Shown: positions 37,213 through 41,266 of the stretch, piece after piece
Numbering within the stretch: position 1 is the stretch's first letter
Layout: each line of letters starts with the position of its first letter
From: Planctomycetota bacterium
GTDB lineage: Bacteria > Planctomycetota > Planctomycetia > Pirellulales > Pirellulaceae
Direction: 5' to 3'
Assembly: GCA_016872725.1 (NCBI GenBank)
Contig: VGZC01000006.1
Coordinates: 62,001-126,000, forward strand
DNA length: 64,000 nt
Notes under the pieces: model-generated
Databases searched by the model: none
The model's input: only the letters and a program-made list of their open reading frames with translations
Told to the model about the DNA's origin: nothing
Position numbers and translations under genes: made by a program

Positions 37213-37516
37213 CGGCCGCGTTCCTTCGCGTCCGCCTCCACTTGAGGACTCCGAACTACCGGCCTCGTCCCGGACCTTCCTTCGCGCTTCCGCCTCCGAC
37301 CGCGCCCTACGACGCCGCGGCGCAGCGCGGAACGGCGGCGGGAACCTATTTACCCGCCGGCGGCGGAGCATACCGGGGCGACCTTTTTCGAACAAGGTCA
37401 ATCAACACCCGATCGATACCCGATTCCCGACACCTCCCTCGTTACCTTCATGGTAAACTCGGGTTCAATCGGTTGACGTCTTGGATTCCCTGATCGGCGA
37501 TTACCGGGAGGCGACC
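37213..37516. other. Divergent promoter region (FlgI-like / selenoprotein)
   Basis: 304 bp between two divergent genes. No gene seen. A short palindrome TTACC-TTCAT-GGTAA (37442-37456) lies 60 bp before the selenoprotein start; five-base arms make it a weak operator candidate. Confidence 0.4.
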
Positions 37517-39025
37517 ATGAAACGACGCGGAATGTTCTGTGTTGGGGCCGTGATCGCCACGACCATGGCAATGGGAGGATCGGCCACTATGGGCCAGCCT
37601 CGGACAGCCGATCGGCCCGACGCTCTGGCGGGCCAGAAGTCGCCCCGTGAACAGGTAATGCGGAGATTCGACCGGGAAGCACCCGAACTGGGAACAGAGC
37701 TTCCCGACGTAGCGGCGTTCCACGCGGACGGGACGGAACTGAGACTGTCCAGCCTGCGCGGCAAGTACACGGTGCTGATCTTCGGATGCCTTACCTGACC
37801 GCCGTTTTTGCGCAACGTCCCCAGTTTGGAGACGATTCACCGCGACTATTCGCCACGCGACGTGCGGTTCCATTACATCTACAAGGCCCTTGCGCATCCC
37901 GAGAACAACGGCTACGTGACGCCGTTCACTTTGGAGGAACGGCTCATGCATATTCGGGAAGCGGAGCGGACGCTGGGATCGGCGATCCCCTGGATTTGCG
38001 ACACGATGGCGAACGACCTGAAACACGCGCTGGGCGACGCGCCGAATTCGGAGTTCATCATCGATCCCGACGGGAAAGTCGTGCGGCGGCGGTCGTGGAG
38101 CAATCCGGTCGCGTTGCGGCGAGACCTGGAGGAATTGGTCGGCGCCGTCGAGCATCCCACGCGGGTGGAGGATTTGGATCTGGTTGGGGCCCCCCCGCCG
38201 AAGGTCGCCGCGTCCGGTGTCGTCCCTCGCGTGCGTCCGCCGGACCGCATGTCACCCGTCACGGTGATACCGCGGGAATCGTCAAGCCCTTTTTACGTGA
38301 AATTGCGGGCCGAGGCGGACGAAAACCTATTGCGGCAGGGCAAGGGAACGCTCTACCTCGGCTTCCATCTCGACCCGTTGTATCATGTCCACTGGAACAA
38401 CCTCGCAGCCCCGCTCACGTTCTCCATCAAGACGCCCTCGGGCGTCGAAGCAACTCCGCCGCGCGGCGAGGGTCCCAAGGTCGACGCGCCCGCCGACGTC
38501 GATCCGCGAGAGTTCCTGATCGAGGTCTCCGGCGCTTCGCGGGATTCTCTGACGGTGCACGTCGACTATTTCGCCTGCAATGACGACGAAGGCTGGTGCA
38601 GACCCGCGTCGCAACAGTACACCGTGAGCCTGCAATACGATCCGGATGGGGGTACCGTGCGGGGTCGTGACCGCGGCCCGATGGACAACCGGGCGCGGGG
38701 AGGCCCGCTCGCGCAACGACCCGGCCCGCGGCCCGAATCGGGACCGACGGGACGACCGCCCGAAACGCGGCTTGACGACGTGGAACGTGTCATGGGCCTG
38801 GTCGTTCGAGCCGACGCCGCCCATCGCACGATCCAGGTGCGCGGCCGCGGCGGCCTGGAACGGGAGTTCCATCTCACCGACGACGCCGTGTTGATCGTCG
38901 ACGGACGCCGAGCGGAACCGGGCGATCTTGCCCCCGGGCAACGTGTCGTACTGGGTTTTCGCCGTTCCGAGGACGGGAAAGCCCTCGCAATGCGGGTCAC
39001 GGCGCGAACCGGTGGAACATACTGA
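37517..39025 (+). CDS. Deiodinase-like selenoprotein with DsbD-alpha-like domain (in-frame UGA = Sec94)
   Basis: I read one gene of 502 residues in which TGA 37796-37798 encodes selenocysteine. The two open stretches on either side share one frame with no gap. Start ATG 37517 follows GGGAGG. A signal peptide (residues 1-26) implies export. Residues about 65-225 form a thioredoxin fold of the iodothyronine deiodinase type: LSSLRGKYTVLIFGC, then Leu-Thr-Sec-Pro-Pro-Phe with Cys91 and Sec94 as C-x-x-U, and later FHYIYKALAHPENNGYV, which corresponds to the EAHPxDGW segment of deiodinases. A DsbD-alpha-like beta domain (about 255-375) contains YFACNDDEGWCRP. A small beta domain ends the protein. 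Read without recoding, a 93-residue fragment would stop inside the active site. A base error or a Cys-to-stop mutation is the alternative. Confidence 0.72.
37796..37834 (+). promoter_or_regulatory. UGA codon and candidate bacterial SECIS hairpin
   Basis: The UGA is followed by a hairpin at 37816-37834: CGUC(C)CCA pairs with UGG(A)GACG, seven base pairs with one C-A mismatch, and the loop is GUU (or AGUUU if the last A-U is open). The loop begins 25 nt after the UGA. Bacterial SECIS models ask for a short stem, a 3-14 nt loop with a G among its first two bases, and 16-37 nt distance, all of which are met. Folding by eye only. Confidence 0.5.
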
Positions 39026-39821: not shown

Positions 39822-40051
39822 TGAATTGGCCCCTTTGATGAATTGGCCCTTTGACGCGTCGGAATGGGTCAACAACCCGAGGATTCGAATGCGTCCGTCG
39901 CGTCGGAAAGGCACGCCGTTCCCGCGCGAAACATGGCCGCAACCTCCAGACGCCCCTCACGCGGGTTGACGCCGGGGTAGCCCGTGGTCTCAAATGCGCT
40001 GGTGCCCACCCTTGCTTGAATCGACGGAGCGCTATTCCGAGAGGACGTACC

Positions 40052-41266
40052 ATGCGGTTATGGACATTGCTGGGTGTCGTGTTGCTGGCCGGCGGTGTCG
40101 GCCTGATCGGTTGTAACAAGGCCGACACGGCGAATCCGGCAGCGCCGTCCGGATCCGGGCCTGTCGCGGCCGTCGAGAAAATCGCGGCAAGCGACTCGGC
40201 GACCGCGACCGCGCCTGGAAAAAACACCGATGGGGCAAACTCGGCCCCGGCCTCCAACCCGGCCTCGCAACCTCCAGCGAACGCGGCGGGAGCGGCCGAT
40301 CCCAACATGCCCGCCGACTCGGCCCCGACCGCCGACCCATGGCTTGCGGGCATTCAGGACGAACGGATGGTCGCCGCATACAACCAGATGCAACAGCGTG
40401 CCGTGTCCGATCCCAAGGATGTCGACGCGCATCTCAACATCATCTTCATTCTCCAGAACGTCGGCCGCATGCGGACAAATCAAGGGGAAACCGAGAAGGC
40501 CTACGCGACATACGCCGAGTCGGCGAAACACGCCCGGGCGCTCATCGCGTCCGGCGAGTCGATTCCCGAAGGGGCGAACAGTTTCCTTTCCAACGTCTTC
40601 TACAACGACGCATGCGCCCGCAGCCTCGCAAAGGATACGGCCGCCGCGCAATCGGCCATCGAAGAGGCATTGAAGTTCGGGTTCAACGACTTCGAAATGC
40701 TCAAGACCGACGAGGACCTCGTCGCCCTCCGCGCGGTGCCCGAATTCGCGGGCAAACTGGCGGGCTGGGAGACGGCCGCGGCCGAAGTCCACAAGCGAAA
40801 GGCCGCCGAGGAGCTCGCTGGGTTCCAGTCCTTCCCGTTCGACTTCGAGGTCACCGACGTCGACGGCAACCCGCACAAACTGGCCGACTACAAGGGCAAA
40901 GTCCTGATCGTCGATATTTGGGGAACATGGTGCCCGCCCTGCCGAGCCGAAATCCCGTCATTCATCACGCTCCAAGAGAAACTGGGCGAGCAGGGCTTTC
41001 AGATGATCGGACTTAACTACGAAAACGCGAACGACGCCGAAACGGCCGCCAAAGTGAAGGCGTTCATGACCGACAACAAAATGAACTATCCCTGCGCGCT
41101 CGGCTCGGACGCGACCCGTGATCAAGTCCCCAATTTCGAAGGCTATCCGACGACGCTCTTCATCGATCGCGCGGGGAAAGTCCGCATGAAGGCGGTCGGA
41201 CTGCACGAATTGGCGTATCTCGAGGCCATGGTCACCACCCTGCTCGCCGAAGCCGCTCCTCAATGA
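40052..41266 (+). CDS. Lipoprotein with TPR-like region and TlpA-type thioredoxin domain
   Basis: Encodes 404 residues. The lipobox is GVGLIGCNKAD at residues 14-24 and the ATG follows GAGAGGA. An Ala/Pro/Ser-rich spacer reaches to about 95. A helical TPR-like region (about 100-230) contains DPKDVDAHLNIIFILQNVGR. A TlpA/ResA-like thioredoxin domain follows (about 265-400): YKGKVLIVDIWGTWCPPC with Cys294 and Cys297, VIGLNYENA-type strand and YPTTLFIDRAGKV with the cis-proline. It should keep periplasmic cysteines reduced or act in cytochrome c maturation. Its stop overlaps the start of the PQQ-like gene by ATGA, so the two are translated together. Confidence 0.88.
   Translation: MRLWTLLGVVLLAGGVGLIGCNKADTANPAAPSGSGPVAAVEKIAASDSATATAPGKNTDGANSAPASNPASQPPANAAGAADPNMPADSAPTADPWLAGIQDERMVAAYNQMQQRAVSDPKDVDAHLNIIFILQNVGRMRTNQGETEKAYATYAESAKHARALIASGESIPEGANSFLSNVFYNDACARSLAKDTAAAQSAIEEALKFGFNDFEMLKTDEDLVALRAVPEFAGKLAGWETAAAEVHKRKAAEELAGFQSFPFDFEVTDVDGNPHKLADYKGKVLIVDIWGTWCPPCRAEIPSFITLQEKLGEQGFQMIGLNYENANDAETAAKVKAFMTDNKMNYPCALGSDATRDQVPNFEGYPTTLFIDRAGKVRMKAVGLHELAYLEAMVTTLLAEAAPQ

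Follow-up and report, generated by a model that had tools for sequence, protein, structure and literature searches.

We analyzed a window of 64,000 nucleotides (the whole stretch of DNA, of which the gene discussed here is one part) from a planctomycete of the Pirellulaceae. The feature of interest is a frame that contains one internal stop only, a TGA at codon 94, between its ATG at 37517 and its true stop, the TGA at 39023-39025, which confirms the single interruption described in the first-pass annotation. The parts of the gene are collected in Table 1. The 1224 nucleotides 3' of the internal TGA stayed open in 0 of 5000 mononucleotide shuffles, and GC content by codon position is similar on either side of it (0.66/0.54/0.70 before and 0.71/0.49/0.76 after). 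When the TGA is taken as a stop, two open reading frames result, the first ending at 37798 and the second starting from the TTG at 37808, so that standard annotation would probably split the gene, as had been anticipated. About 0.8 kb downstream, at 39851-41266, the window encodes a TlpA-like protein whose thioredoxin motif, WCPPC, is an ordinary one, and the next gene after that encodes a PQQ-like repeat protein.

Table 1. Features of the TGA-interrupted gene, in window coordinates
Feature	Position	Strand	Basis or remark
Ribosome-binding site GGGAGG	37506..37511	+	5 nt upstream of ATG; sequence
Predicted selenoprotein gene, 502 residues with Sec94	37517..39025	+	Frame and homologs
Signal-peptide-like N terminus MKRRGMFCVGAVIATTMAMGGSATMG	37517..37594	+	Putative export signal, from sequence
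Deiodinase-like thioredoxin-fold domain, residues 55-213	37679..38155	+	Pfam, DIO3 alignment, model, fold search
Cys91, first residue of CxxU	37787..37789	+	Invariant
TGA, probably read as selenocysteine (Sec94)	37796..37798	+	
SECIS-like hairpin CGUC-C-CCAGUUUGG-A-GACG	37816..37834	+	Bases 21-39 from first TGA base
Ig-like beta-sandwich domain, weakly DsbD-N-like, residues 220-375	38174..38641	+	
His292 of VHWNN	38390..38392	+	Invariant in Sec forms, altered in four Cys forms examined
Cys354, first of second Cys pair	38576..38578	+	Invariant
Cys361, second of second Cys pair	38597..38599	+	Invariant
Small beta-rich C-terminal tail domain, residues 419-498	38771..39010	+	Model and domain scan

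Domain architecture of the predicted protein

In an AlphaFold model of the protein (mean pLDDT, 86), the first domain (residues 53-210) is predicted to adopt a fold that is best matched by mouse deiodinase 2 (DIO2; Z 19.4 over 156 residues at 2.0 Å) and deiodinase 3 (DIO3; Z 18.6), with SdbA, ResA, and peroxiredoxins below them at Z 15 to 17 (next best, 16.7). This is in keeping with the deiodinase-like fold proposed from the sequence alone, and the two segments on which that proposal relied also hold up: IFGCLT-U-PPFLRNVP aligns with the active-site segment FGSCT-U-PPFMARM of DIO3 (phmmer E 1e-6; the solved chain has Cys for Sec), and the ALAHPENNGYV region (ALAHPENNGYVT) aligns with EAHPSDGWVT of DIO3. 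The deiodinase family PF00837 matches 39 of 42 scanned members at E 0.01 or better and gives the whole window protein 25.8 bits, below the gathering cutoff of 27; given that score, a PF00837 search of the host genome, which returned nothing at E 0.001, is uninformative. AhpC-TSA is the sole Pfam family above its cutoff (27.7 versus 26) and matches 41 of the 42 members. Of 78 relatives put through a simple scan, 74 have a hydrophobic stretch at the N terminus, and these signal-like N termini suggest that the protein is exported, as had been proposed.

The first-pass description makes no mention of a second domain, which has an invariant Cys pair and shapes the likely mechanism. Folded alone, this domain is predicted to form an Ig-like sandwich (pLDDT, 92). 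The DsbD_N family PF11412 gives it 20.2 bits, below the cutoff of 25, and matches 10 of 42 members at E 0.01 or better. Structures of DsbD-N and ScsB (1vrs, 1l6p, 1jpe, and ScsB) align with it at Z 6.5 to 6.9, level with or below adaptin ears, and other Ig-like folds tie or outscore DsbD-N at Z 6 to 8. No match was obtained in a PDB profile search with the second domain, and an hhalign comparison with the N-terminal domains of two planctomycete DsbD proteins gave nothing significant; the modeled resemblance to DsbD-N is weak and suggestive only. EF-hands occur in about 19 of the 42 scanned members, and matches to the NCBIfam models XopAW and LanM are most likely EF-hand cross-matches.

Conservation of the TGA codon and a SECIS-like hairpin

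Close homologs with the TGA (47 to 59% identity) were found in 18 genomes besides that of the host among the 297 genomes of the order. Seventeen of the 18, read through, have GCLT or GCMT before the TGA and PPF after it; the remaining one (G262, L040 1436-2334) is a frameshifted, decaying copy that still reads GCLT-TGA-PPFLRK and has lost the covarying pair of the hairpin described below. A scan of GTDB genomes yielded 209 relatives, and the best 80 of the 209 were fetched, which overlap in part with the genomes of the order set; 80 of 80 read GCLT-TGA at the same codon. Together with the same-order relatives, they rule out a sequencing error at the TGA. The gene is present in a complete chromosome record (K23_9, CP036526.1), at about 7.826 Mb. 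By record title, the 80 relatives come from Planctomycetota, Acidobacteriota, Verrucomicrobiota, Kiritimatiellota, Poribacteria, and two gammaproteobacterial metagenome-assembled genomes (MAGs), although the MAG titles and binning behind this list may be wrong. The patterns used in the scan lie outside the TGA codon but were taken from Sec-form proteins, so that distant Cys forms could be missed. Sec occurs in every main-branch member examined, and one genome (G213) has one Sec form and one stop-free, more distant paralog.

With the TGA as the starting point of the count, bases 21 to 39 are predicted by RNAalifold to form a small-looped stem. In an alignment of 18 sequences, 94% of the cells pair, and the covariation score is 0.370, compared with 0.199 in shuffles (0 of 500 as high) and a maximum of 0.170 at slid positions. 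In 85 distinct sequences, pair 24-36, which links codons 7 and 11 at their wobble positions, is C-G in 74, U-A in 10, and U-G in 1. Codon choice within the hairpin is similarly restricted in the 80 fetched loci: at codon 8, Pro is CCC in 61 of 61 and Ser is TCC in 19 of 19 (28% and 19% elsewhere in the same genes); at codon 9, Ser is AGT in 48 of 48, Gly is GGT in 22 of 22, and Arg is AGG in 10 of 10 (13%, 20%, and 7% elsewhere); and at codon 10, Leu is TTG or CTG in 79 of 79 (58% elsewhere), with the caution that these counts come from related sequences and that no exact probability is claimed for them. G29 is invariant in alignment A2, and the loop variants AGUUU and GGUCU resemble GGUC, the loop sequence of the fdhF SECIS in E. 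coli. Folding of this region for a SECIS had been suggested earlier, and the alignment contains a conserved, covarying hairpin. The window hairpin, folded as a single sequence, is not more stable than its shuffles (z -0.2 to -0.6), so that the SECIS claim is carried by the alignment evidence; no Rfam SECIS family matched within 37400-38300. Taken as predicted from the alignment, the role of the hairpin at 37816-37834 as a SECIS for SelB and tRNA-Sec is strongly supported.

The stop at this codon is always TGA and never TAA or TAG in over 95 sequences from several phyla. A genuine stop, in either a broken gene or a short protein with occasional read-through, could be argued from the decayed, frameshifted copy in one relative, but such a reading is very improbable given that TGA occurs at one codon only throughout this set, that both flanks and the downstream Cys pair are conserved, that the hairpin covaries, and that the gene is linked to the Sec machinery. 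We regard it as nearly certain, from these comparisons, that the gene encodes a selenoprotein in which the UGA at 37796 is decoded as Sec, and the original proposal to that effect gains from the sel genes, the covarying hairpin, and the conservation of the TGA alike.

Selenocysteine machinery and cysteine forms

The host assembly (5.24 Mb, 100 contigs, 95.8% complete) contains selA, selB, selC, and selD, the four genes for which a search had been advised. The tRNA-Sec gene (selC) has a TCA anticodon, SelA scores 477 bits and SelB 355 bits in all, and selB and selA adjoin on one contig (C2). The host SelD, whose catalytic site carries an in-frame TGA (ASCAG-U-AGK; L018, C19:20463-21389), is a selenoprotein itself, and five more AhpC/TSA- or TlpA-like genes have a TGA at the expected catalytic Cys (UTKEC, UGPC, ULPC, UPPC, and UINC; match regions L167, L171, L172, L173, and L177). 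Judged by its gene content, the host genome uses selenocysteine and has a sizeable selenoproteome.

Across the order, full SelA was found in 17 of the 19 TGA-form genomes and in 61 of the remaining 278 (Fisher p 3.5e-9, or 1.4e-8 once the decayed copy is left out), and selC of at least 64.7 bits was likewise found in 17 of the 19. SelA was not detected in two TGA-form genomes, G286 and G232, of which G232 has selC, and selC was not detected in G286 and G280, of which G280 has SelA; G280 and G286 are 91%-complete drafts, and G232 is rated 99%. The gene and the machinery are also neighbors in some lineages, with selA at most about 2.3 kb from the gene in five fetched loci. In a Phycisphaerales MAG (L088 965-6990), selD, selB, selA, and the gene follow one another on a single strand; selA lies immediately upstream of the gene in L085 and L097, and selA and selB lie approximately 2.3 kb downstream of it in L113 and L123. 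The gene adjoins selA in G570 as well, which is probably the same genome as L088.

The replacement of the UGA by Cys in relatives, another check that had been proposed, was found in four loci with TGC or TGT at the Sec site (L135 in G659 and L041, L042, and L043 in G201, G244, and G096). The hairpin codons are absent from all four. True SelA was not found in any of these four genomes, and no tRNA-Sec match above 50 bits was found in G201, G244, and G096. Decoding of the UGA as Trp or Cys by suppression, for which we found nothing in favor, is thus extremely improbable, as Cys codons replace the TGA only in genomes without true SelA, the full Sec machinery is present in the host, and TGA stands at catalytic Cys positions in five other host thioredoxin-fold genes and in selD.

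Cys91, Cys354, and Cys361 are invariant in 97 of 97 aligned sequences, Sec and Cys forms together, which bears out the Cys-x-x-Sec motif that had been read from the sequence. All 93 Sec forms have His292, which is altered in 4 of 4 Cys forms; in the second domain of the latter, VHWNN is replaced by A-[ESK]-WNN. The Sec forms make up one side of one branch of a quickly built tree, on which Sec versus Cys needs one change, so that Sec-to-Cys switches cannot be counted as many independent events; a possible association of Sec94 with His292 therefore rests on about one evolutionary event.

Relation to known selenoproteins and possible function

Deiodinase-like bacterial selenoproteins have been known since 2005, when they were found in the Sargasso Sea (PMC1088965), and were described again in 2008 (PMC2398784). 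A 2026 inventory of 119 families lists PF00837 with a UxxC motif, has no CxxU deiodinase-like entry, and treats differing Sec motifs as distinct subfamilies (PMC13188914). The protein described here shares with the known PF00837 selenoprotein a thioredoxin fold, a PF00837-like sequence, and a UGA with a bacterial SECIS. It differs in having Cys at position -3, which gives CxxU rather than the listed UxxC, in having KALAHPE where relatives have REAHPxDGW, and in the attached second domain with its invariant Cys pair; other planctomycete relatives have no Cys at -3 (GSYTUPPF). We also observed a set of other planctomycete deiodinase-like genes (L136 to L144, L156, L157, L160, and L161) with TGA before PPF or PPY and no Cys at -3 (GSYTU, GSFTU, GAITU, and GALTU), which by sequence are probably the known deiodinase-like selenoprotein group.

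Among other relatives, DIO2 and DIO3 are the nearest solved folds, and the position of Sec in their motif is the same, but they are 24 to 25% identical, have Ser at -3, and have no second redox domain that aligned. The NCBIfam model NF038285 (deiodinase_rel) matches each of the 42 members scanned. Its match to the window protein covers the deiodinase-like domain and scores 55.3 bits, against a curated cutoff of 250; other homologs in the order have FTCGPF, with Cys. The window protein stays below the cutoff of every NCBIfam selenoprotein and deiodinase model. The TlpA, ResA, and CcmG oxidoreductases have the same fold, are exported, and in known cases are fed by DsbD or CcdA, but have WCxxC in place of CLTUPPF. 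A 2021 ocean survey lists two separate fusions, one of deiodinase-like with EF-hand and one of Prx-like (U/CxxC) with PF11412 (PMC9402790). Members of the present family join deiodinase-like and PF11412-like domains, often with EF-hands, and, compared by description, the fusions of that survey may include pieces or members of the CxxU family. The designation "new-type" given to this selenoprotein at first therefore holds for the subfamily and not for the kind, which has been known since 2005: in sequence terms, this is a distinct CxxU, two-domain subfamily of the known bacterial deiodinase-like kind, without an NCBIfam model. What began as the reading of a single gene thus extends to a family of about a hundred sequences examined (209 relatives found) in several phyla, which current models miss, and its members are therefore probably split or truncated in databases. 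In this family, which is sometimes encoded with sel genes, a deiodinase fold is combined with what appears to be an electron-relay domain; this makes two questions testable, namely, the role of bacterial deiodinase-like proteins and why some phyla retain selenocysteine.

With moderate confidence, we favor an exported selenol-thiol reductase as the product of this gene. After decoding of the UGA by SelB and tRNA-Sec, with the hairpin as SECIS, the Sec94 selenolate would attack an oxidized or disulfide-bonded substrate outside the cytoplasm, Cys91 would resolve the product as a selenenyl sulfide with Sec94, and Cys354 and Cys361 of the second domain might re-reduce the active site as an electron relay, fed in turn by membrane DsbD. 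Cys91 is proposed as the resolving thiol because the residue at -3 in related peroxiredoxins (TxxC) touches the catalytic atom. A DsbD transmembrane protein is present in 25 of 25 genomes tested, Cys-form genomes included, and so does not discriminate between Sec and Cys forms.

The main rival is a selenol peroxidase, in which Sec94 would reduce extracytoplasmic hydroperoxides and Cys91 would replace the Thr of TxxC/TxxU. The AhpC-TSA match given above, the alignment of peroxiredoxins at Z 15, and the use of TxxU by Sec peroxiredoxins (PMC13188914) are consistent with such an activity, whereas the nearest folds are deiodinases and the signature Thr at -3 is Cys in every aligned member; we consider it unlikely but worth serious consideration. 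True reductive dehalogenation of halogenated organics, as by deiodinases, would agree with the fold, with the FGxxTUPPF and AHP motifs, and with the marine origin of several members by record title, but that fold is common to thiol-disulfide oxidoreductases and many members are not marine by record title, which makes this activity improbable.

Beyond the favored selenol-thiol reductase, our results lead us to speculate, tentatively, that this is a widespread exported family, absent from models and inventories, that combines a deiodinase-type CxxU site and its own dithiol relay domain in one chain. It could be one reason that Planctomycetota and Acidobacteriota keep the Sec system, given the clustering of the gene with sel genes in some lineages, and the family may either have preceded the deiodinases as a bacterial forerunner or represent a periplasmic selenol reductase or dehalogenase of a new class. 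A widely shared operon around the gene was not found among the relatives' loci compared, and sulfatases, mostly on the opposite strand, are the conserved neighbors in 18 loci.
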